A DNA stretch of 43,450 bases from a virus, in the IMG/VR virus record IMGVR_UViG_3300044632_001862, positions 1-43,450 of that record. The stretch is one strand, 5' to 3'. Below, one piece after another: positions 4,874-25,199 of this stretch; the stretch's first letter is position 1, and the number at the start of each line of letters is the position of its first letter. The position numbers were made by a program, and so were the translations under genes. The notes under the pieces were generated by a model. It was given only the letters and a program-made list of their open reading frames with translations. It searched no databases and was not told the DNA's origin.

Positions 4874-5182
4874 ATGGCGATTGTGCCGCTGCAGTGGCCC
4901 GATAAGCGGCCAGGCGATAGGGCCTATTGGCAGCTTGATTGGACAGACCAGCTTGGCCTGGAAGACCCAGCGGATACCATCGAGACCGTTTCATGGGTGG
5001 TGCCGGCCGGTATCACGCGCGTCTCGGCTGGCAAGATTGCCAAGGATGCGGCTTCGAAGATTGCGCTGATTTGGCTGGAAGGTGGCACGGCGGGGCAAAG
5101 CTATGCCTTTGTCTGCACCATCACCACGGCCAATGGCATCACGCTGGAACGCGGCGTGAATTTGTTTGTGAGGGCTGCCTGA
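4874..5182 (+). CDS. Phage fibre-tail adaptor-like protein
   Basis: This 102-residue protein has the arrangement seen in the fibre-tail adaptor family: LDW near residue 21, then VSWVVPAGIT, then IWLEGGTAGQSYAFVCTITTANGITLERG, an immunoglobulin-like beta sandwich. Such proteins link fibres to the tail tip. Its place at the end of the fibre cassette fits. Start: AAGGAA eleven bases before ATG 4874. Its stop overlaps the next ATG (TGATG). Confidence 0.7.
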   Translation: MAIVPLQWPDKRPGDRAYWQLDWTDQLGLEDPADTIETVSWVVPAGITRVSAGKIAKDAASKIALIWLEGGTAGQSYAFVCTITTANGITLERGVNLFVRAA

Positions 5183-6456
5183 TGCCCCCGACACCGCTCA
5201 GCCGTGCCGAACTTATCAAAACCGTGAAGGCCTATGACAAGGCCGGGCACAACAAGGCGCGTGCTGCGCTGGCGCTGGGCATTGGGCATAACGCCATGCA
5301 CAATCGCCTTCGGCGTGCGCGTGAAGCCGGGCTGCAGGTGAGGCCCGGCTCAGGGCATAAGGATGGCGGCGCCAAGCGCCTGCCGGAAATGAGCCTGGAA
5401 GATCGGGTGCGCTACAAAACCTTGGAGGCAAAGAACCGGGAATTGGCGCGCCTGCTTGCGGAAGCGGATGCCAAGGCAGCCCAGGCGGATAAGTTCCGCG
5501 CGCTGTCGGCTGAATTGCATGACAGCCCCCAGCCCCCGCCTAAATGGACGGTGCGCGTGCCCGCGGGCAAGGATGCGCCGGGTGTGCCTGTGTTGATGCT
5601 TTCCGATTGGCATATTGGGGAGACGGTTGATGCGGCGCAGGTGCATGGCTGCAATGAATTCAACGCGGCTGTTGCCGATAGGCGCGTGAAATCCGTGATC
5701 GATCGGGTTTTGCATTTGGCCTTTTATCACGTCAAAACGCCTGAATACCCCGGTATTGTGGTGATCCTGGGTGGGGATTTTGTTTCTGGCTGGTTGCATG
5801 AAGAATTGTTCCGCACGGATTGGTGCGCGCCGCCGACTGCGGCGAATTGGTGTGTCAGCCGCTTGCATGCCGCGCTGCTGCGCCTGGCTGAAGCCTTCGG
5901 GCGCGTGCATGCGGTGTGTGTGCCGGGCAATCACGGAAGACTGACGCGCAAACCCATGGCCAAGGGTGGCGCCACAAGCTGCTTTGACCATGCGATTTAT
6001 GAGGCGCTTTCGGATCGGCTGCGCGATGATGCGCGCATCACCTGGCAGATACCCGCTTCCGGTGATGCGCTTTTCCAGGTGGCGGGCACGCGGTTTTTAG
6101 CGATGCATGGGCATGAATTGGGCGTGAAGGGTGGGGACGGGCTTATCGGCGCGCTGGGGCCCATCATGCGTGGCGCAATCAAGACTGGCCGGGCGGAGCG
6201 TTCCCTTGGGCGCGACTTTGATGTGCTGCTGTTGGGCCATTTCCATCAAAGCATCTGGCAGCCGCATAGCGGGCTCGTGGTGAATGGCACGTTGAAGGGG
6301 TTTGATGAATACAGCAGAATGCAGCGCTACAGCTTTGCGCCGCCGACTCAATCCCTGTTTTTCGTGCATCCGCGCTTTGGGCCGAACCTGCCCTTCAATG
6401 TGTTCTGCGATGAACCCAAGCAGCGTGAGCAAGTAAAATTCGTGGCGGTGGCGTGA
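5182..6456 (+). CDS. HTH-metallophosphoesterase fusion
   Basis: This 424-residue protein has an N-terminal helix-turn-helix-like segment (residues ~5-50), a charged coiled-coil linker (70-112), and a calcineurin-type metallophosphoesterase domain. The metal ligands are visible: D142 and H144 in SDWHIGE, GD at 198-199, GNH at 249-251, H309/H311 in MHGHE, and GHFH at 352-355. The family hydrolyses phosphodiesters or phosphomonoesters with two metal ions. The DNA-binding-like N-terminus suggests a nucleic-acid substrate, but this is not shown. ATG overlaps the adaptor stop, and the dNMP kinase start overlaps its own stop, so the gene is translated with late genes. Confidence 0.88.
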   Translation: MPPTPLSRAELIKTVKAYDKAGHNKARAALALGIGHNAMHNRLRRAREAGLQVRPGSGHKDGGAKRLPEMSLEDRVRYKTLEAKNRELARLLAEADAKAAQADKFRALSAELHDSPQPPPKWTVRVPAGKDAPGVPVLMLSDWHIGETVDAAQVHGCNEFNAAVADRRVKSVIDRVLHLAFYHVKTPEYPGIVVILGGDFVSGWLHEELFRTDWCAPPTAANWCVSRLHAALLRLAEAFGRVHAVCVPGNHGRLTRKPMAKGGATSCFDHAIYEALSDRLRDDARITWQIPASGDALFQVAGTRFLAMHGHELGVKGGDGLIGALGPIMRGAIKTGRAERSLGRDFDVLLLGHFHQSIWQPHSGLVVNGTLKGFDEYSRMQRYSFAPPTQSLFFVHPRFGPNLPFNVFCDEPKQREQVKFVAVA

Positions 6457-7025
6457 GGGCGCCGCTGATCGGGCTTTACAGCCCCGCGCCTGGGTCCGGG
6501 AAATCCACTCTGGCCGGCGCAATGTTCGGCCATGGCTGGCGGGTAGTGAAATTCGCCGCGCCGCTGAAGGCAATGGTGGCTGCGCTGCTGCGTGAAGCGG
6601 GCGAATCGGCGGATGTGATTGAGCGCGCGCTTGAGGGTGATTTGAAAGCCCAGCCGATGGAAGCGCTGGCGGGTCGGAGCCCGCGCTACACCATGCAAAC
6701 ACTCGGCACGGAATGGGGCCGGGGTGCCATGGCATCCGATATTTGGGTGCGCCTGGCCATCATGCGCGCAAATCGGCTGCGCGCTGAAGGTGTGGCGGTA
6801 ATTGTGGATGACATGCGGTTTGAGAATGAAGCGCGGGCCATCCAGGAAGCGGGCGGAAAGCTGGTGCGGATCACGCGGCCCGATGCTGCGCGGCTTGCCG
6901 GGCATGCCAGCGAAGGCGCGCTGGATGACTTCCGGTTCGGTCTGGAGGTCAGCAACACGCAGGCTTCTGGCCTGGCCTTTGGGTTGAATTGGGCCAGCCC
7001 GGTTTCCGCTTTCGGGTGGCGCTGA
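6453..7025 (+). CDS. Deoxynucleoside monophosphate kinase
   Basis: This 190-residue P-loop kinase has Walker A at residues 9-19 (SPAPGSGKSTL). The central YTMQTLGTEWGR resembles the substrate/lid region of phage T4 gp1-type dNMP kinases. VAVIVDDMRFENEARAI is the Walker B-like strand and helix. The enzyme would phosphorylate dNMPs to dNDPs, feeding phage DNA synthesis. It starts at GTG 6453, overlapping the phosphoesterase stop by four bases. A nucleotide-metabolism gene between tail and lysis genes is unusual but occurs in mosaic phages. Confidence 0.82.
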   Translation: MRAPLIGLYSPAPGSGKSTLAGAMFGHGWRVVKFAAPLKAMVAALLREAGESADVIERALEGDLKAQPMEALAGRSPRYTMQTLGTEWGRGAMASDIWVRLAIMRANRLRAEGVAVIVDDMRFENEARAIQEAGGKLVRITRPDAARLAGHASEGALDDFRFGLEVSNTQASGLAFGLNWASPVSAFGWR

Positions 7026-9769: not shown

Positions 9770-10819
9770 TCACGCCGCAGCGCGCTTGCTGGGCTTGGTT
9801 AGCCCCAAAAATTTCCGAATCTCCGCAGCCATCGTGCCCGGCACCAGCTTTGTGTAGCGCTCGGTCTGGCTCACGGTTGACCAATCTCCATCGGATTTCA
9901 GCCGCATCAGATCCCGGTGCATCGCGTAGTGCCAGCTCGCCCAAGTGTGCCGCAGGGTGTGAGGGCTAACATCGGCTATGCCGGCGCGCTTGCAGGCGCC
10001 GCGCCAAGCGCTGGCTATCTGCCCGCCGTATAGCCCGCCCGTGTCGGCATAGGCCAGCGGCTGCTTGCCGCGTTTCTTGGCCGGCGGGCGGAACACATGC
10101 CCTTCCCGATGCGGCAGATTGGCCAGGGCTGCCACGGTGCGCGGGGGCAGGCTTGCCACGCGGTCCCGGCCCTGTTTGGTGTCGCGCAGCAGCGCGCGGC
10201 CATGTGTCAGGTCCAGATCGGCCCATTGCAGCGCCAGCGCCTCGCTCAGGCGCGCGCCGGTGCCAAGCAGGAACAGGATCAGCGGCGCCAGGTGCGGCGC
10301 GGCGGCGGCGGTGAGGGAATCGGCCTCGGCCGGGGTGAGCCATCGGGTGCGCTTGACGCCGCTGGCGCCCTTCGGCGCTTCGAAGTTCGGCATATCACAC
10401 CATTGGCGCCGGGCGGCATGGGCCAGCACGGCGCGGATCGGCGTGATCACTTCCCGCAGCTTCGTGGCTGGCTGCGCGCCCGGGCGGCACCGGGCCTGGA
10501 TCACGCGGTCAATGGTGGCTTGGGTGATGTCTGAAAGGCGCTTGCCGGTCAGGCTATCCAACAGGCGCAGCAGCCGGGCGTTTTCCGCGGCGCTACGCTG
10601 CGCTGCGTCCAAATAGGAATTGACGGCCTGATCCCAGGTAACTACCGCCCGCGCGCCGAAAATGGCACCACGGTACAGGCTGGCTTCGAGTTCGGCCCTT
10701 GCTTCTTCCGCGAGCCTGCGGTCAGACGTACGCGCAGATTGCCTGATCCGCTGCCCGGCAACGGTCCCGGTGATTTGCCAAGCGCCTGTGGCGCCGCTGC
10801 GGGTGAGCGAGAGGGGCAT
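9770..10819 (-). CDS. int: Tyrosine-type phage integrase
   Basis: This 349-residue recombinase has a basic N-terminal arm-binding region (residues ~8-55), a SAM-like core-binding domain (60-140), and a catalytic domain. The catalytic residues are R190 (GTGARLSEAL), K215, H287 and R290 (HTLRHTWASW) and nucleophile Y322 (ERYTKL). It would recombine the tRNA-Thr-derived attachment site at 8956-9006. The start at 10819 is supported by the typical N-terminal motif WQITGTVAGQRIRQS. Its first 178 bases overlap the excisionase-like frame. Confidence 0.95.
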   Translation of the reverse strand: MPLSLTRSGATGAWQITGTVAGQRIRQSARTSDRRLAEEARAELEASLYRGAIFGARAVVTWDQAVNSYLDAAQRSAAENARLLRLLDSLTGKRLSDITQATIDRVIQARCRPGAQPATKLREVITPIRAVLAHAARRQWCDMPNFEAPKGASGVKRTRWLTPAEADSLTAAAAPHLAPLILFLLGTGARLSEALALQWADLDLTHGRALLRDTKQGRDRVASLPPRTVAALANLPHREGHVFRPPAKKRGKQPLAYADTGGLYGGQIASAWRGACKRAGIADVSPHTLRHTWASWHYAMHRDLMRLKSDGDWSTVSQTERYTKLVPGTMAAEIRKFLGLTKPSKRAAA

Positions 10820-17510: not shown

Positions 17511-17783
17511 CTATGCCGGCTCCGCCGCCCGCAAATATGCCGCCACGCCGGCCGCCACGCCCGCGCGAGCCCCCCGATAAAACCAATCGGTGGTAAGGCC
17601 GAATTCGTCACAGACCCGCACAAGCCAAATGGGGTCTGGGTAATTGTCCCCGCGTAGGTAATTGCTAAGTTTGTTTGGGGCGATTCCAGTGCGGCGGCAG
17701 AATTCAGCCTGAGATAGCCCGAGCGCGTCTATCGCGATGCGGAGGTTATTCCCAACGAAGGTCTTGTGCGGGGTTGCTGGCAT
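17511..17783 (-). CDS. XRE-family repressor (CI-like)
   Basis: This 90-residue protein has an XRE helix-turn-helix at about residues 15-55 (ALGLSQAEFCRRTGIAPNKLSNYLRG). It ends in FGLTTDWFYRGARAGVAAGVA, a small dimerisation-like tail. It has no LexA-type protease domain, so SOS cleavage is not expected from sequence. It lies between two clusters of matching operators and is read leftward, as expected for the lysogeny repressor. The ATG at 17783 abuts an operator-like dyad (17784-17798) and lacks a clear ribosome-binding site. Confidence 0.75.
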   Translation of the reverse strand: MPATPHKTFVGNNLRIAIDALGLSQAEFCRRTGIAPNKLSNYLRGDNYPDPIWLVRVCDEFGLTTDWFYRGARAGVAAGVAAYLRAAEPA

Positions 17784-17798
17784 GGCAGAGATACTGCC
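17784..17798. promoter_or_regulatory. Operator-like dyad at repressor start
   Basis: GGCAGAGATACTGCC is a dyad related to the TGCAGA-N3-TCTGCA consensus, with two changes. It touches the repressor start codon, so binding would limit the repressor's own expression. Confidence 0.5.
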
Positions 17799-17831
17799 TG
17801 CAGGTTTTTTGCTTTGCCATGCAGAAGGTGA

Positions 17832-17861
17832 TTGACATGGTATGCAGAAATCCTGCATGGT
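17832..17861 (+). promoter_or_regulatory. Rightward early promoter (PR-like)
   Basis: TTGACA (17832-17837), a perfect -35, is followed by 18 bases and CATGGT (17856-17861), a weak -10. An operator lies in the spacer, as at the leftward promoter. The expected transcript start falls at or next to the ATG of the Cro-like gene. Confidence 0.6.
17842..17858. promoter_or_regulatory. Operator OR1-like site
   Basis: ATGCAGAAATCCTGCAT matches the 17-bp operator with one mismatch between arms. A half-site (ATGCAGAAGG) lies at 17819-17828. Together with the sites at 17358 and 17391 it defines the probable immunity specificity. Confidence 0.7.
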
Positions 17862-17867
17862 TGCGCC

Positions 17868-18080
17868 ATGTCCGATCCCTTGTCCCGTGCAATCGAAGCT
17901 GCTGGGGGGCTTGATGCCTTCATCAGTGGTATTGGTATTTCCAGCCGAACCCTTGCGGATTGGCGCCGGTACGGGGTGCCGGACACCCGCTGTCTTGCGG
18001 TTGAAAAAGCGACGAATGGGGCGGTGACCGCCCAGGAACTGGCGGTACACCGTGTTGATCGGTTGCGGGGTGCCGCCTGA
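17868..18080 (+). CDS. Cro / YdaS-like antirepressor HTH protein
   Basis: This 70-residue protein reads SDPLSRAIEAAGGLDAFISG early on and then WRRYGVPDTRCLAVEKATNG, the arrangement of Cro/YdaS-family helix-turn-helix proteins. It is divergent from the repressor and first on the rightward transcript. No ribosome-binding site precedes ATG 17868, and the predicted transcript start is at the ATG, so the message may be leaderless. An in-frame upstream start (17832) lies within the promoter and is unlikely. Confidence 0.72.
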   Translation: MSDPLSRAIEAAGGLDAFISGIGISSRTLADWRRYGVPDTRCLAVEKATNGAVTAQELAVHRVDRLRGAA

Positions 18081-18082
18081 TG

Positions 18083-18550
18083 TCATTGCGTGCGGGCTCG
18101 CTCCAAAACACGCCGGCGCGCTGCGGCGCATTGTTCGGCGTCAGCACGGGTAGCGCTGGCGCGGCCCATGTTCCATTCCGGGTCATCCGGCACGGCGGTG
18201 ACGCTGCTGCGGTAGCGTTGAAGCGTCGCGCTGCTGACGCCGCCGCAGCCTTCGGCCAGCCCTCCCAGGAAGGTGGCGCTGTTCATGCTGAACTGGCGGT
18301 TGGATGTGGGCAGACTCGCAGCGGGTGGTCGCCTTTCCTGGTTTTCCAGGCGCCGCAGATTATAGCACTGGTCCTTCAGCATGCCCGCCTGAAAGCCCGC
18401 GGCGATGCCGCTATAGATGCTTGCGGTCGCAAGCTGCGCTTCATAGTCGCAGCGGGCTTTCTGTGCCGGCGAGAGCCCAGCGGCGGGGTCCGGCAGGTTG
18501 CACCCCATCAGGGTCAGCCCCAGGGCTGCGGCGGTGATTGGTTTCAGCAT
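18083..18550 (-). CDS. Lipoprotein 1, probable lysogenic-conversion gene
   Basis: This 155-residue protein starts MLKPITAAALGLTLMGC. That is a lipoprotein signal with Cys 17 as the lipidation site; the next residue is Asn, so outer-membrane sorting is expected. The mature part has several Cys residues and a helical region with DYEAQLATASIYSGIAAGF. ATG 18550 has AAGGAGA eight bases upstream; a longer in-frame start at 18577 would place the signal internally. It is antisense to the rightward early transcript and converges on the Cro-like gene. Superinfection exclusion or surface modification is a context-based guess. Confidence 0.65.
   Translation of the reverse strand: MLKPITAAALGLTLMGCNLPDPAAGLSPAQKARCDYEAQLATASIYSGIAAGFQAGMLKDQCYNLRRLENQERRPPAASLPTSNRQFSMNSATFLGGLAEGCGGVSSATLQRYRSSVTAVPDDPEWNMGRASATRADAEQCAAARRRVLERARTQ
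18501..18550. repeat. Signal-peptide repeat, copy A
   Basis: These 50 bases encode the start of lipoprotein 1 and match 18864-18913, the start of lipoprotein 2, with four differences. The genes diverge after the lipobox Cys. Confidence 0.88.
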
Positions 18551-19449: not shown

Positions 19450-19586
19450 TCAAGGCGGCGATATGGCGCGCGGTTTCAGCGCGGCTGGGAAAGCTTGGCG
19501 ATTGGTGTTGGAATCTGGCTGATGCGGCGGAGCATCGTGCGAGGGCCAGCGAGAAAGCCAAAACAGCCCGCAGGCGCCAGCCATGA
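19446..19586 (+). CDS. Small hypothetical protein (46 aa)
   Basis: ATG 19446 overlaps the CII-like gene and its stop overlaps the GcrA-like ATG, so it fits the coupled operon exactly. The product is an amphipathic basic helix (IKAAIWRAVSARLGKLGDW then many Arg/Ala). No family recognised. Confidence 0.5.
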   Translation: MIKAAIWRAVSARLGKLGDWCWNLADAAEHRARASEKAKTARRRQP

Positions 19587-20215
19587 GCGCCCATCCTGGC
19601 CCATGGGGCAAGCCCGGAATGATTGATCGGCTGCGCGAATTACATGCGCGCGGCGATAGCTTCACTGAAATTGCGGATGCGCTTGGCGTGTCCAAGGGTT
19701 CCGTTGTTGGCAAGGTGCATCGGTTGAGGCTGGATGCCCGGCCTCTGCCGGCGGCGCTTGAAGGTGTGAAGAATAAGCCGCGTGCCGCCTACACGCGGTT
19801 TAGGGCGACGGTCGTTGGGGGGTTCCAAGTGGCGACCGTCGCCCACCAAAACTTGGCTGAGGCTTCGGCCCAGCCCGGGCCGCGCGCGGCGGCTGCTACC
19901 GCGCATTTGCCTTTCCTCCCTTTGGTGAACTCTGCGGCTGAGGTTTCAAAGCCTCGGCCGCAGCTTTTTCCAGCGCGGGGCTGTCAGTTTCCGATGTGGG
20001 GCGACAAGGAAAGGCCGCTTGGGGAAGAACCGCGCTTTGGCGATTCGCCGGCGCGGCGGAATGAAGAAGGGCGGCAAGATAGCGCTTACTGCCCAGCGCA
20101 TCACGCGCGCTGTTTCAGCAAGCGCGGGGCGGCAGAAGATGAAGTGCGGCAGAAGCCAAAGAATCGCGCATGGCAGGGTCCGCCCGCTCGTGGAAGGTTC
20201 CCGGCCTATGTGTGA
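19583..20215 (+). CDS. GcrA-family transcription regulator
   Basis: This 210-residue protein has the GcrA N-terminal helix-turn-helix (residues ~13-50, with IADALGVSKGSVVGKVHRL). A long linker leads to a C-terminal part with CQFPMWGD and YCPAHHARCF, the Cys-rich sigma-70-interacting end of the family. In Caulobacter, GcrA binds RNA polymerase and activates promoters carrying methylated GANTC. A phage copy may redirect host transcription or serve phage promoters. It precedes an orphan methyltransferase by 0.5 kb in the same operon. Confidence 0.82.
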   Translation: MSAHPGPWGKPGMIDRLRELHARGDSFTEIADALGVSKGSVVGKVHRLRLDARPLPAALEGVKNKPRAAYTRFRATVVGGFQVATVAHQNLAEASAQPGPRAAAATAHLPFLPLVNSAAEVSKPRPQLFPARGCQFPMWGDKERPLGEEPRFGDSPARRNEEGRQDSAYCPAHHARCFSKRGAAEDEVRQKPKNRAWQGPPARGRFPAYV

Positions 20216-20471: not shown

Positions 20472-20725
20472 GCGCGGATTTGGCGGCAAGGCTGCTGACG
20501 CTTCTGACGCTGGCGGAAGTGTGGCTGAAGATGCGGGCCTACGATGACTTGGCCGTGGCGCATAAGGAGATGGTCCAGTTGCTGGATTTGCCCTTGCACA
20601 GCATTGAAATGGATTTCTTCAAGCTGCTGAATCAAGCGAAAATCTGGCGGCTAAAGGAGAATGCCGGAGAGATACAGCGCTGCCATGCGGAGATGCGGGC
20701 CTTGTTGGAGGGCTGCGTGAATTGA
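20468..20725 (+). CDS. Hypothetical early protein (85 aa)
   Basis: This 85-residue all-helical protein (ADLAARLLTLLTLAEVWLKM) overlaps both neighbours by four bases. Its stop overlaps the TTG start of the methyltransferase. It could be a small partner in replication or modification. No motif supports a choice. Confidence 0.5.
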   Translation: MSADLAARLLTLLTLAEVWLKMRAYDDLAVAHKEMVQLLDLPLHSIEMDFFKLLNQAKIWRLKENAGEIQRCHAEMRALLEGCVN

Positions 20726-21654
20726 GCGGCCCGCGCATCCTGATCGGTGACTGCCTTGAAGTGCTGCGCGGCTTGCCCGATGGTATGGCGCAGACATGCG
20801 TGACAAGCCCGCCTTACTATGGGTTGCGCGACTATGGCTGCGCTGGGCAGATCGGGCTTGAGGTAACGCCGGACGCCTATGTCGCGCGGTTGGTTGACGT
20901 GTTTCGGGAAGTGCGGCGGGTGCTGCGCGATGACGGGACGCTTTGGCTGAACCTGGGCGATAGCTATGCAAGCGGCGGACGCAAGTCGCGCGATCCTGGG
21001 CAATCAAAGATTCATCCCGCGTTTGATGGTGATGCGTTTGCGGATGGCCTGCGGCCCGTTGATCCGCCCGGCATCAAGCCCAAAGACCTCCTCGGCATCC
21101 CCTGGGTGGTCGCCTTTGCCCTTCGCGCCGATGGTTGGTGGCTGCGCCAGGACATCATCTGGCACAAGCCGAACCCCATGCCTGAAAGCGTCACTGACCG
21201 CTGCACAAAGGCGCATGAATATGTTTTCCTCCTGACCAAAAGCGCGCGGTATTTCTATGATGCGGCGGCGATTGCGGAGGAAGCGGAGCGCGGCGATGCG
21301 GGCTCGCGCTTTGATCAAGGCAAGACAGCGCAGCATCAGCTTGATCGGCAGGCTTCCGGCGCGCGGATAGATGATGGCCGGCGCAACGCCCGATCCGTTT
21401 GGCCCATTGCCACGCAGCCCTATAGCGGCGCGCATTTTGCCACCATGCCGCCCGCATTGGCTGAGCGTTGCATCAAGGCGGGCAGCAAGCCCGGCGATAT
21501 GGTCTTGGACCCGTTTGGTGGCGCTGGCACCACGGGGCTTGTCGCGGATAGGCTTGGGCGCAGCGCCACGCTGATAGAATTAAACCCGGAATATGCGCGG
21601 CTGGCGCGGGAACGCATTACGGCGGATGCGCCGTTGTTGGTGGGTGCGGCATGA
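20722..21654 (+). CDS. Orphan DNA methyltransferase (SPPY, beta class)
   Basis: This 310-residue protein has the catalytic SPPY at residues 29-32 (TSPPYYGLRDYG) and the AdoMet-binding DPFGGAGTTG at 263-272. The catalytic motif before the cofactor motif is the beta-class order. SPPY occurs in N4-cytosine and some N6-adenine enzymes. The start is TTG 20722, overlapping the preceding stop. No restriction endonuclease lies beside it, so it probably protects phage DNA or regulates gene expression. The target site is not predictable by eye. Confidence 0.88.
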   Translation: MSGPRILIGDCLEVLRGLPDGMAQTCVTSPPYYGLRDYGCAGQIGLEVTPDAYVARLVDVFREVRRVLRDDGTLWLNLGDSYASGGRKSRDPGQSKIHPAFDGDAFADGLRPVDPPGIKPKDLLGIPWVVAFALRADGWWLRQDIIWHKPNPMPESVTDRCTKAHEYVFLLTKSARYFYDAAAIAEEAERGDAGSRFDQGKTAQHQLDRQASGARIDDGRRNARSVWPIATQPYSGAHFATMPPALAERCIKAGSKPGDMVLDPFGGAGTTGLVADRLGRSATLIELNPEYARLARERITADAPLLVGAA

Positions 21655-22214
21655 GCGCTGCCCTCGCACCTGATCGGCGCGCCAGAATCCAAGCCGCGTG
21701 GGATAAGCGTCGGTTCGCCAGAATCGCATCCGCGTGGGATAACCGCAAGCCGCATGGGATCGAGACCGGCATTTACGCGCCGTTGCCGAAACGCGGCACC
21801 AAGGCTGGTGAGCAAATTGCCTGGGCCTTCCCGGAAGAACTCACGAAGCAGGATGAGGGCCACATGGCGCGCGCGATGGTGGCGCTGGGCCTCACGCGGC
21901 GGCTGATGACAGCGCCGCGTTGTGGCACCCCGCTTTGGTATGAGGCACGGCTGCCCCAAGTGAATGCGCTGCGCGATGACAGGCTCGAATGGCCGGTGCT
22001 GCTGATGGCGTCCGCCATTGATGCGCCCGAACAGCATGCGGTTTGGGTCTGCACTGTCTCCGGTGACTGGATCACCGGGTCGGGCGGTGCGCGGGGGCGC
22101 AGCTTTGTCAGCCTCGGCCAATACATTTGGGCGGTGTCGGAATTTGAAGCCGCGCGGCGCTTGTGCCGGGCGAATGGCTGGAAGGGGGTTCTCCGTGTCG
22201 GCGACCTTCGATGA
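21651..22214 (+). CDS. Hypothetical early protein with a tandem repeat (187 aa)
   Basis: Near the N-terminus two ~12-residue repeats occur (RARIQAAWDKRRF then ARIASAWDNRKP), with a DNA repeat unit of 36 bases at 21681 and 21717. The rest has conserved-looking aromatic residues (VWVCTVSGDWITGSGG). No family recognised. ATG overlaps the methyltransferase stop, and the following replication gene begins inside it. Confidence 0.55.
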   Translation: MSAALAPDRRARIQAAWDKRRFARIASAWDNRKPHGIETGIYAPLPKRGTKAGEQIAWAFPEELTKQDEGHMARAMVALGLTRRLMTAPRCGTPLWYEARLPQVNALRDDRLEWPVLLMASAIDAPEQHAVWVCTVSGDWITGSGGARGRSFVSLGQYIWAVSEFEAARRLCRANGWKGVLRVGDLR

Positions 22215-24015
22215 TGGATTTGACCGCGCCCTTAATGATGCGGGCAGGCTGTTGAAGGTGGTGGAAGGCGGCAAGGGCAAGCGCCGGGGTGGGGGTGGTG
22301 ATGCTCCGCCGCCCGAATCGCCCCCGCCGGAAGATTTGGATTGGGCGGCGGCGCCTGTGGAATGCTTGGGCGTGAATGGGGAGACCTGGTGGTTTGTGGA
22401 TGCGTATCGGCAGATCATCGCTATTCAGGCGGGCAAGCTTTCCGCGCGTGGCGCCTTGAATGCGCTGCTGGGTGGGGACGCCACGGGCTGGGCGGCGCGC
22501 CACTTCCCGGAATTTGACAAGGAAGGCATGAAGACTGGGGATTATAGCCCGCGCAAGCTGCACAAGGCGCTGGCGGAACGCATGACGGAAGTAGGGCTGT
22601 TTGACCCCTCCACGCCGCGCCGCGGGCCTGGGGTGTGGCTGCATCAGGGCAAGCCCGTGGTGCATGCCGGCGCCAATGTTCTATTTGCGGATGGGGCGCG
22701 CAAGCCAAGCTTTATCCGCGATGGCATTGCCTATATCGCGGCGCGGGCCATAGCGCAGCCGCATGATGGGCAGGATGGCCGGCCAGAAGCGGGCAGCGCC
22801 GCGCTGGCGGAGGAAGCGGAAGCGATGTTCCGGCAATGGAATTGGGAAAACGGCGCGTCAGATCGGATGCTGTTGGGTTGGTGGGTGATTGCCAATTTGG
22901 GCGCGCTGGCGCCCATGCGCCCTCTGGCGATGATTGATGGCCAGGAAGGTGCGGGGAAATCCACGCTGTTGGAAATTCTGGCGGCGCTTTGCCCGGCTGG
23001 TGAAATGACGAATGACACCACGGAAGCGGGCCTGCGCCAGCGCATGAATCAGCGCGCGGCGCCGATGATCCTGGATGAATTTGAAGGTGAGGAATTGCTC
23101 CGCGTGCTGGCCATGCTACGGCGCATTGTCACCGGGGAAGGTAGCCGGTCCTTCCGAGGGCAGGGCAGCCAGACCGCTGTGGTGACGGAAGTGGTGGGCA
23201 CGGCGGTGATGGGCGCCATTGGCGCACCTGTCGCCAATTCTGCGGAAACCACGCGCATCCTGCGCCTGATGCTTTGGCCCCGCGCCCCTCATGTGCCAAG
23301 CCTGGAAAAATCCGCCTTGCTATCTTGGTGCCAGAAGGAAGCGCCGGCCTTGTGGGGCCGCGCGATCGCCGCCTGGCCGCGCATCCACGCCAATGCCGCC
23401 ATGATGCGCCAAGCGCTGAACCGTGCGGGCTGTTCGCCGCGATACGCGGATATGCTGGGCTGGCTGATCGGCGCGCGCGAAGCCATGGTGGCTGATCTGC
23501 CCTTGACGGAAGCGCAGGCTGAAGAAGCTTTGGAATGGGCAAGCGGTTGGGTGGTGACGGAAGCCGAACAGGCGGAAGACACTACGGCTGCGCGCTGCCT
23601 GCAGCATCTGATGTCCTATCAGATTCAGACTGGCCCAGGCGCCACGCAAACGATTGCCGCGCTGATCAGGGACGCCTTGCCCGGCAATTTCTCTGAACGG
23701 GTATTGCTCGAAAATGGGCTGCGACTGGCCCCGTACCCCATCGCGAATGAAAGCGACGGCGCGCGGATGGGGTTGTACGTGGCGACGGGGCGAAGACCGT
23801 CCTTGGCGCGCATCTATGGCCAGACGGAATGGCAGGGCGGGCGCTGGGGCACGGTGCTGGCGCAGCTTCGATCCAGCGCAGAAGGCAAGGAGGTCCGGGC
23901 CGTGGTGGTGAAGACACGCATGCGCTTCAGCGGGGAGAATGATCGTTCGCAAGCGGTATGGTTGGCGCCACAGTTGCTGCCGGCGGCCGGGAAGAAGGGT
24001 GAGGGGATGGATTGA
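22195..24015 (+). CDS. Replication P-loop ATPase / helicase-like protein
   Basis: This 606-residue protein has Walker A GQEGAGKST at residues 249-257 and Walker B MILDEFEGEE near 291-300. The helical and sensor region after it resembles phage helicases related to the primase-helicase superfamily. An N-terminal ~200-residue region may hold a primase-like or accessory domain, but no Toprim motif is evident. GTG 22195 is chosen because it follows GGGGG and restores a normal length; the open frame extends further upstream inside the preceding gene. An iteron cluster lies immediately downstream. It is the best candidate for the replication initiator or helicase. Confidence 0.75.
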   Translation: MSATFDDGFDRALNDAGRLLKVVEGGKGKRRGGGGDAPPPESPPPEDLDWAAAPVECLGVNGETWWFVDAYRQIIAIQAGKLSARGALNALLGGDATGWAARHFPEFDKEGMKTGDYSPRKLHKALAERMTEVGLFDPSTPRRGPGVWLHQGKPVVHAGANVLFADGARKPSFIRDGIAYIAARAIAQPHDGQDGRPEAGSAALAEEAEAMFRQWNWENGASDRMLLGWWVIANLGALAPMRPLAMIDGQEGAGKSTLLEILAALCPAGEMTNDTTEAGLRQRMNQRAAPMILDEFEGEELLRVLAMLRRIVTGEGSRSFRGQGSQTAVVTEVVGTAVMGAIGAPVANSAETTRILRLMLWPRAPHVPSLEKSALLSWCQKEAPALWGRAIAAWPRIHANAAMMRQALNRAGCSPRYADMLGWLIGAREAMVADLPLTEAQAEEALEWASGWVVTEAEQAEDTTAARCLQHLMSYQIQTGPGATQTIAALIRDALPGNFSERVLLENGLRLAPYPIANESDGARMGLYVATGRRPSLARIYGQTEWQGGRWGTVLAQLRSSAEGKEVRAVVVKTRMRFSGENDRSQAVWLAPQLLPAAGKKGEGMD

Positions 24016-24017
24016 AC

Positions 24018-24281
24018 TGTCCCGCTAAGTGTCCCGCTGAAAGGCCGATTTGTCCCGCATGAAGCGGGCAAGTCATTGAAAAGCTTAGATGCGGGACAGC
24101 GGGACAAGCGGGACAGGGCACTTCCTCATGCGTGTGCGCGCGTCACATGTGCGCGCATTTAGAAAATAGGTGTGTCCCGCATGTCCCGCTTGTCCCGCTG
24201 TGTATAATAATAAGTAAAATCAGATAGATAGATAGATAGTAAAGGGACAAAGGGCGGGACAGTTTCTGGTTGGGCGGGACA
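24018..24281. other. Putative replication origin with TGTCCCGC iterons
   Basis: Six TGTCCCGC octamers lie at 24018, 24030, 24051, 24173, 24182 and 24191. Five inverted copies (GCGGGACA) lie at 24091, 24099, 24108, 24254 and 24274. The clusters at 24091-24115 and 24173-24198 are spaced by 8-9 bases. Between lie TGTGCGCGC direct repeats (24133 and 24148), and at 24199-24243 an AT-rich segment with GATA tandem repeats (24223-24238). Iterons beside an AT-rich tract downstream of a replication ATPase are the usual make-up of an origin. A packaging or regulatory site is an alternative. Confidence 0.72.
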
Positions 24282-24303: not shown

Positions 24304-24984
24304 ATGGCGGAACATCGGGCGGTGAAGGGGATCACCTTGGGGGTTGGCGTGGTCCAGCCGGGCGAGGCGTGGGTTACAGGGGACGGTATGGCTCAGCGCT
24401 TGATGGAATCGGCCCATGCGCGCGCAATGGCCGAGCAAGCCCGCGCGGTCGCGGCTCAGTGCCACGTGGCGCCGCTTTTCAGGGTGCCGGTGCAATATGA
24501 CCCTGATGCGGCTGTGCGGGCAGCGGAAGGGGCGCAGCGCAGGGCGGCGCGGCGGCTGATGTCGGATAAGCTGGCGCTGTTGGCAGAACGTGGCAGGATT
24601 GGGCAGTCCGAATGGTGGGCGGCTTTGGAAATGCGGCACGTGGTTGAGTATGTGGAAGGCGGTCGCATGCCGCTGGTGCGGTCTCAATTGCGGGAACGGT
24701 TGCCCTCGGGTGGGGATGGCACTGGCGAACTGATCGCGACGGAAGAACTGGTGCGGATCGCCTATGATCCGTGGCGGCGGTATGCTCGGCGGTATCCAGT
24801 CGCGAAAGGCGCGACGCTTGAATGCCTGACGCGCGGGCCTGTGTTCAATGGCAAGGGGCTCAGGCAGGTGGCGAATGACATTGGGATTGACCAGCGCCGT
24901 GCGGAGCGTCTGCTGAGGCGCAGCCTAAGCCATTACGCGGGGCTGCGCGGCTGGCCCAGTGCCGCGGCGGAAGAATGCTGTTGA
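24304..24984 (+). CDS. Helical DNA-binding-like protein before the terminase (226 aa)
   Basis: This 226-residue protein is preceded by AAGGGG and the iteron region. It is Ala/Arg-rich and helical; the C-terminal segment (GKGLRQVANDIGIDQRRAERL) resembles a sigma-like helix-turn-helix. A late-gene activator or antiterminator at this position would suit lambda-like order, but this is inference. A stem with a U-tract lies 48 bases after its stop. Confidence 0.55.
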   Translation: MAEHRAVKGITLGVGVVQPGEAWVTGDGMAQRLMESAHARAMAEQARAVAAQCHVAPLFRVPVQYDPDAAVRAAEGAQRRAARRLMSDKLALLAERGRIGQSEWWAALEMRHVVEYVEGGRMPLVRSQLRERLPSGGDGTGELIATEELVRIAYDPWRRYARRYPVAKGATLECLTRGPVFNGKGLRQVANDIGIDQRRAERLLRRSLSHYAGLRGWPSAAAEECC

Positions 24985-25031
24985 CACGCTGCCACGTTTC
25001 AGGGCATGAAACCACTAATAGGCGAATCTGC

Positions 25032-25061
25032 GCCCGGATGGCTCCACCATCTGGGCTTTTT
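25032..25061 (+). terminator. Intrinsic terminator between early and late regions
   Basis: GCCCGGATGG (25032-25041) pairs with CCATCTGGGC (25047-25056) with one G-T pair around a CTCCA loop, and TTTTT follows at 25057-25061. It separates the early operon from the packaging genes. Confidence 0.8.
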
Positions 25062-25168
25062 CATGCCATGCACCCCTCTGCCACATCAATCGCGCGCCCA
25101 GCATCGCGGGTCCTTCCGGGCCTAAACTGTATGCGGGCGGCTGACGCGCTCGAGTTTTCTAGTGTGGG

Positions 25169-25197
25169 GGTTCATCGAAACGGTTCACTGGGGTTCA
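25169..25197. repeat. Three GGTTCA repeats before terminase small subunit
   Basis: GGTTCA occurs at 25169-25174, 25182-25187 and 25192-25197, just before the terminase small-subunit start. Short direct repeats next to terminase genes can be terminase binding sites in cos or pac regions. The spacing is uneven (13 and 10 bases). Confidence 0.4.
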
Positions 25198-25199
25198 CG

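Follow-up and report, generated by a model that had tools for sequence, protein, structure and literature searches.

Replication origins made of iterons 3' of a helicase gene are known. In the GN-PICI and SaPI elements short iterons lie 3' of rep (PMC6092414, PMC7581432), with the origin immediately adjoining that gene; it has an AT-rich region between two sets of iterons and supports plasmid replication (PMC6092414). The rep-ori segment of a GN-PICI drives plasmid replication in E. coli DH5alpha (PMC6092414), and the C-terminal domain of SaPI Rep recognises the iterons directly downstream of rep, apparently as two hexamers; Cch2 of SCCmec binds direct repeats that closely follow the gene encoding it (PMC7581432). 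A similar organisation is seen in the P4 alpha/ori1/crr system (NC_001609), where the helicase gene is followed by a cis region with 8-bp repeats in both orientations; these annotated type 1 repeats, TGTTCACC, are 9-11 bp apart, with some in runs of three. The P4 crr lies just 3' of the alpha helicase gene, which is also the position of the array described here.

The window, i.e. the whole 43,450-bp stretch of DNA that was analysed, is the genome of a temperate tailed phage. It encodes an integrase (9770-10819), a repressor-like gene (17511-18131), a DNA methylase and a helicase, along with small and large terminase (gpA type), portal, head protease/capsid, tape measure and tail fibre. A close relative was found in a Roseomonas MAG (L057) pointing to hosts among the Acetobacteraceae; DNA-level similarity to named phages was restricted to a chance-level match. 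Upstream of the replication module are genes for a GcrA-like cell-cycle regulator (19583-20215) and an N6/N4 DNA methylase (20722-21654), suggesting that the phage touches the methylation-based cell-cycle control of its host. Genes for a phage exonuclease and a deoxynucleoside monophosphate kinase are found at 4939-7025, left of the integrase. The GC content falls to 47% at 1001-2000, in a neighbourhood of 56-65%; this segment, possibly a recent insert, is inside an ORF (560-2491) without a PHROG match.

Architecture of the octamer array

The preliminary description had reported eleven perfect octamers in 264 noncoding bases, six direct and five inverted, and a search of both strands of the window for the word bears this out: 11 of the 14 TGTCCCGC/GCGGGACA sites fall within 24018-24281. 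Three lie in the rest of the 43 kb, where chance would give about two. When the window was shuffled in full with dinucleotides preserved, the mean was 1.9 sites and the maximum 9, with none reaching 14, and the repeat score in sliding 350-bp windows was 11.5 at the array versus 5.0 for the best stretch elsewhere in the genome. To these a degenerate site can be added, AAGGGACA at 24242-24249, whose invariance in 15 of 15 aligned relatives indicates that the true count is twelve, arranged as four triplets (+++ --- +++ ---). The array is noncoding, beginning 2 bp past the helicase stop codon (24015) and ending 22 bp before the ATG at 24304. Its parts are:

24018-24281, no strand: candidate origin array, 11 perfect TGTCCCGC octamers and 1 degenerate, in four triplets
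24018-24058, + strand: triplet 1, direct, sites at 24018, 24030 and 24051
24091-24115, - strand: triplet 2, inverted, sites at 24091, 24099 and 24108, spacing 8 and 9
24127-24143, no strand: alternating purine-pyrimidine tract CATGCGTGTGCGCGCGT in the central spacer, 17 nt
24173-24198, + strand: triplet 3, direct, sites at 24173, 24182 and 24191, spacing 9 and 9
24200-24241, no strand: AT-rich stretch with GATA repeats, candidate DNA-unwinding element, 83% AT
24242-24281, - strand: triplet 4, inverted, degenerate AAGGGACA at 24242-24249, then sites at 24254 and 24274

The 8-9 bp spacing that had been noted for some of the octamers holds in the two inner triplets only (24091/24099/24108 and 24173/24182/24191), whereas the outer triplets are spaced by 12 and 20-21 bp. 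The AT-rich GATA tract is likewise real: it sits between triplets 3 and 4, is among the most AT-rich stretches of this GC-rich genome, and its best 30-mer (83% AT) is equalled or exceeded by 0.04% of all 30-mers. GC skew, suggested earlier as a means of mapping the origin, showed no clear or sharp switch at the array across the window and is uninformative as an origin marker.

The adjacent helicase

The array is preceded by a predicted initiator helicase and followed by a gene without an assigned function:

21651-22214, + strand: gene overlapping the helicase start, upstream of it, 187 aa, no family assigned
22174-24015, + strand: predicted initiator helicase, 613 aa from a probable ATG at 22174, the ORF being open from 22018
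23557-24012, + strand: C-terminal domain of the helicase, predicted origin-binding part, residues 462-613
24304-24984, + strand: neighbouring gene, function unassigned, 226 aa, no family match

The helicase carries a P-loop (Walker A, GQEGAGKST) and a Walker B motif (ILDE). It matches phrog_21086 (1e-83) and the primase family phrog_35358 (1e-26), i.e. families of unknown function and primase, while Pfam and NCBIfam searches matched no family. Its AlphaFold2 model (mean pLDDT 74) is closest in the PDB to SCCmec Cch (5dgk, Foldseek E 1.9e-8), followed by NrS-1, poxvirus D5/E5 and PriRep1 with dsDNA (matches 5dgk, 6lrb, 8wh0, 8hwa and 7pds in all); among viral models it matches phage proteins, including DUF927 and "Replication protein B" entries. 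As the TM-scores are low (~0.3-0.5), these fold matches support membership of a superfamily rather than close kinship. Judged by the model, the protein combines the Walker A/B motifs with the D5/Cch-like fold of the SF3/D5-like (AAA+) initiators. The C-terminal domain (residues 462-613) is modelled with a pLDDT of 82 and a pTM of 0.80, and a PDB search gave it neither a significant fold match nor a known DNA-binding fold. Its secondary structure raises the suspicion of a winged helix; given the absent PDB fold match, we do not claim one of the P4 type.

The octamer word follows the helicase

In 17 close IMG/VR relatives 9-11 exact octamers are found directly 3' of the helicase gene with the same spacing and orientation. 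Using gene 24304 as the bait for comparison retrieves loci with a homologous neighbour but another helicase. One such set comprises L025, L027-L031, L033 and L034, in which gene 24304 is homologous and the helicase only 28% identical to that of the window; their arrays read TTCACACC/GGTGTGAA in the same layout as the window. Homologues of gene 24304 with 54-58% identity hence adjoin a different octamer, and in two of these loci, L029 and L034, the large terminase is ~83% identical to its counterpart in the window. The contrast is plainest in L029, with 82.6% identity in the large terminase, 54% in gene 24304 and 28% in the helicase, and the word TTCACACC. In L011 and L018-L020 the terminase is ~43%, gene 24304 55-62% and the helicase 84-92% identical, and the word is TGTCCCGC. 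Thus, the word goes with the helicase, since the octamer changes with it and follows neither the terminase nor gene 24304. The sequence downstream of the array differs among the loci, with helicase and array staying together.

A homologue of the 187-aa gene (21651-22214), 46-51% identical, precedes the other helicase type too, and its product is a possible partner of the helicase. In L029 (4899-5696) and L025 (4905-5705) the homologue of gene 24304 has an in-frame upstream ATG with a good ribosome-binding site, and its frame, if begun there, spans the second half of the octamer array.

Distribution, words and geometry

By profile search, the share of genomes with a helicase relative was 35 of 398 at family level, 8 of 385 at class level and 6 of 399 at phylum level, with the Roseomonas MAG G001 counted in each of the three tallies; a scan with the L076 protein as query gave no matches. 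Arrays were sought de novo as any repeated octamer in the 330 bp 3' of each helicase gene. This uncovered them at 26 of the 28 testable Acetobacteraceae loci, with scores of 5-10.5, while shuffles did not exceed 4 and coding controls mostly scored 0; no array was found by this search near the homologous helicases of L080 and L083. Further IMG/VR loci had an array in 19 of 19 cases, weakly so in L120. Outside Acetobacteraceae, the array adjoins the gene in 5 of 13 loci and lies farther 3' in 3 more. The score of L102 was discarded, as it reflects low-complexity AT repeats and is nearly equalled by its own shuffles. In the cultured Synechococcus phage MinM1, TGTGAG occurs exactly twelve times, in four triplets, 3' of a helicase gene that is annotated as hypothetical. 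In phages of Bordetella, Yersinia, Pseudomonas and Serratia, whose fused primase-helicases are more distant, no 3' array was found. In L135 (Acinetobacter phage Acjo_20) an array-like GTGTTACA block (1-420), in very AT-rich DNA, lies 5' and not 3' of a helicase relative.

Across 46 non-redundant helicases about 12 sites occur 3' of the gene, in more than 20 different words (TGTCCCGC, TGTGAA, TGTGAG, TGTAACC, CGTAGCC, TGTCTCA, TGTTCC, CGTTACC, CGTTAGGT and others). The words commonly share (T/C)GT at one end, a constancy that is partly by construction since their frames were set by hand on the GT. Twelve is the modal site number (22 of 46), and 39 of 46 arrays have 11-13; neighbouring sites are 8-9 bp apart in 159 of 316 cases and 11-12 bp in 101 of 316. 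Two layouts recur, the +++ --- +++ --- of the window and +++ +++ --- +++, and nearly all arrays have an AT-rich gap, the AT-richest stretch being most often after site 9. The array is therefore conserved and linked to the helicase rather than to its other neighbours, with a geometry that stays constant while the words change. An open-literature search found no description of this strict twelve-site layout and word vocabulary, which does not prove its absence.

Alternating purine-pyrimidine runs of at least 12, which are Z-DNA-prone, occur in the central spacer of 29% of arrays versus 0% of control stretches. They are found in the window, L010, L029, L076, L079, L081, L084, L087, L091 and L092, mostly in arrays of the +++ --- +++ --- layout.

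Covariation between helicase and word

Differences in each protein segment were compared with differences in the word, controlling for overall divergence and deriving p by permutation. Segment 519-557 of the C-terminal domain was the best associated with word differences, both when every sequence was used (partial r 0.14, p 0.003) and within the largest cluster (partial r 0.24, p 0.007), residues 519-597 being the best associated in the all-sequence test; among the closest pairs the C-terminal segment was not the top-scoring one. The covariation is modest (partial r 0.14-0.24), with relatedness not fully corrected. Where the word has G at position 4, one residue of the predicted wing is Asn in 10 of 13 helicases, versus 2 of 33 others (Fisher 4e-6, relatedness uncorrected), and residue and word position switch together in three sets of close relatives; for instance, at 91-92% core identity L060 has TGTGAC and Asn, whereas L061 and L103 have TGTAAC and Ala. 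The helicases of L060 and L061 are 89% identical. We treat this link as a lead, because columns outside the domain, in the ATPase core, score as high.

Mechanistic interpretation and alternatives

We propose, with a probability of roughly 0.85, that the array is a phage replication origin bound by the C-terminal domain of the adjacent helicase. Its origin activity we infer. Weighing against the proposal are the absent GC-skew switch, the C-terminal model that matches no DNA-binding fold, the modest covariation and the homologous or more distant helicases near which no array was found. Recognition of an origin by the neighbouring ATPase was already the suggestion of the preliminary description, and comparison lends it good support in that the word tracks the helicase, the layout is kept and the protein model is initiator-like. 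The array would serve a temperate Acetobacteraceae (Roseomonas-like) phage, whose SF3/D5-like helicase is predicted to bind the octamers via its C-terminal domain, with one subunit per octamer and the twelve sites seating two hexamers. The DNA would melt in the AT-rich stretch that separates triplets 3 and 4; the helicase would thus be loaded directly and unwind the DNA, with priming provided by host or other phage proteins.

A wider reading, for which the odds are somewhat less than even, is that these proteins form an uncatalogued, widespread family of phage initiator-helicases with a fixed twelve-site pad (four triplets, two hexamers), free diversification of the word around (T/C)GT, mutually orthogonal origins and a readable protein-DNA recognition code. 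If so, the origins of many uncharacterised phages and prophages could be read from sequence, an unnamed helicase family would gain a function, and the twelve-site layout would offer a concrete test of self-loading hexameric helicase assembly and DNA melting. The dozens of natural helicase-word pairs, some of them 91-92% core-identical with a one-base word change, make the code and the orthogonality of the origins testable.

The origin might instead be recognised by another phage protein, either that of gene 24304 or the 187-aa upstream product, which would recruit the helicase, much as the origin binder (O) of lambda-like phages is separate from the helicase. The 187-aa gene is indeed conserved in both helicase groups, but gene 24304, put forward earlier as a candidate for footprinting, is unlikely to be the binder, as it stays homologous across a change of word and has diverged across loci with the same octamer; on the whole we regard such an intermediary as improbable, the 187-aa product being a possible candidate for it. 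Instead of an origin, the octamers could also be operators, bound by a repressor or used to autoregulate the genes that follow. The array does lie upstream of gene 24304, repeats in two orientations could serve in this way and initiators often autoregulate; yet the sequence 3' of the array varies between loci while helicase and array remain paired, no sigma-70-like promoter was found in the array region, and an origin is the better fit for twelve sites that surround an AT-rich gap and always follow the helicase. An exclusive operator function is accordingly rather more improbable, although a dual role, operator besides origin, is possible.

The small and large terminase genes (gpA-type, lambda-like) begin ~1 kb downstream of the array, and the lambda cosB has short repeated binding sites beside its terminase genes. 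Binding by terminase, an alternative named in the preliminary description, would make the octamers a cosB- or pac-like packaging site, but nearly the same large terminase in L029 comes with a different octamer and 43% identical terminases come with the same one, so that the word is independent of this protein. Between the array and the position where the terminase probably starts there are moreover gene 24304 and the noncoding 24985-25199. A packaging role is thus very unlikely, and the lambda-type cosB/terminase site was rejected as the repeats are not conserved together with the terminase. Least credible is that the inverted octamers work at the RNA level, whether as a terminator hairpin, an attenuator or an antisense structure. 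The array transcript does fold far better than shuffles (z -8.1) and contains a perfect 20-bp inverted repeat, but any set of inverted repeats must fold. Across 14 distinct relatives compensatory change is seen at 0 of the 20 pairs of this repeat and six pairs are broken in some; its pairing is no better than in shuffles and single sites decay alone. A terminator scan found no terminator-like site, Rfam gave no match, and relatives of the +++ +++ --- +++ layout would give a different fold.

Comparison with known systems

The origin reading places the array beside the systems introduced above. It shares with P4 a cis region, 3' of a helicase gene, in which octameric repeats run in both orientations, and the P4 repeat word, like that of the window, begins TGT. 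By hhalign, however, the P-loop alone aligns between P4 alpha and the window helicase, and P4 alpha has a zinc ribbon, a Toprim primase and a Pox_D5 C-terminal domain, none of which the window helicase matches. No fused primase (Toprim, zinc ribbon) was found in the latter, and the Pfam domains D5_N, DUF5906 and Pox_D5, matched by P4 alpha, are absent in 25 members of its family. P4 also has a separate second origin region, whereas the window has 12 sites in four triplets with one AT-rich gap.

Compared by their published descriptions, the PICI and SaPI origins share the position 3' of the helicase gene and the iterons flanking an AT-rich region. They differ in that the window array occurs in whole tailed-phage genomes and not in satellites, in its strict twelve-site, four-triplet layout and in a helicase without a named family. 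With genes of its own for integrase, terminase, portal, head and tail proteins, the window is not a phage-inducible satellite; neither is its system a P4-alpha member. SCCmec Cch provides the closest solved fold (5dgk) at a sequence identity of ~9%, and only three 5-nt iterons are reported for Cch/Cch2. The origins of lambda (O/ori) and of iteron plasmids resemble the array in placing repeated initiator sites beside an AT-rich stretch; their initiator is not the helicase, and their iterons are longer, direct and ~20 bp apart. The suggestion that the ~8-base, two-orientation spacing implies a novel mode of binding is weakened by these parallels, as the P4 type 1 repeats are similar and the PICI/SaPI iterons are short.

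Thus, the shared layout features indicate a phage system that works like P4 alpha/crr and the SaPI/PICI rep-ori in its organisation, and, on the strength of the sequence comparisons, the array is a real and conserved element that resembles an origin and is very probably paired with the helicase next to it. Helicase-adjacent 3' iteron origins as such are known; what differs here is the strict twelve-site layout and a helicase without a Pfam family.
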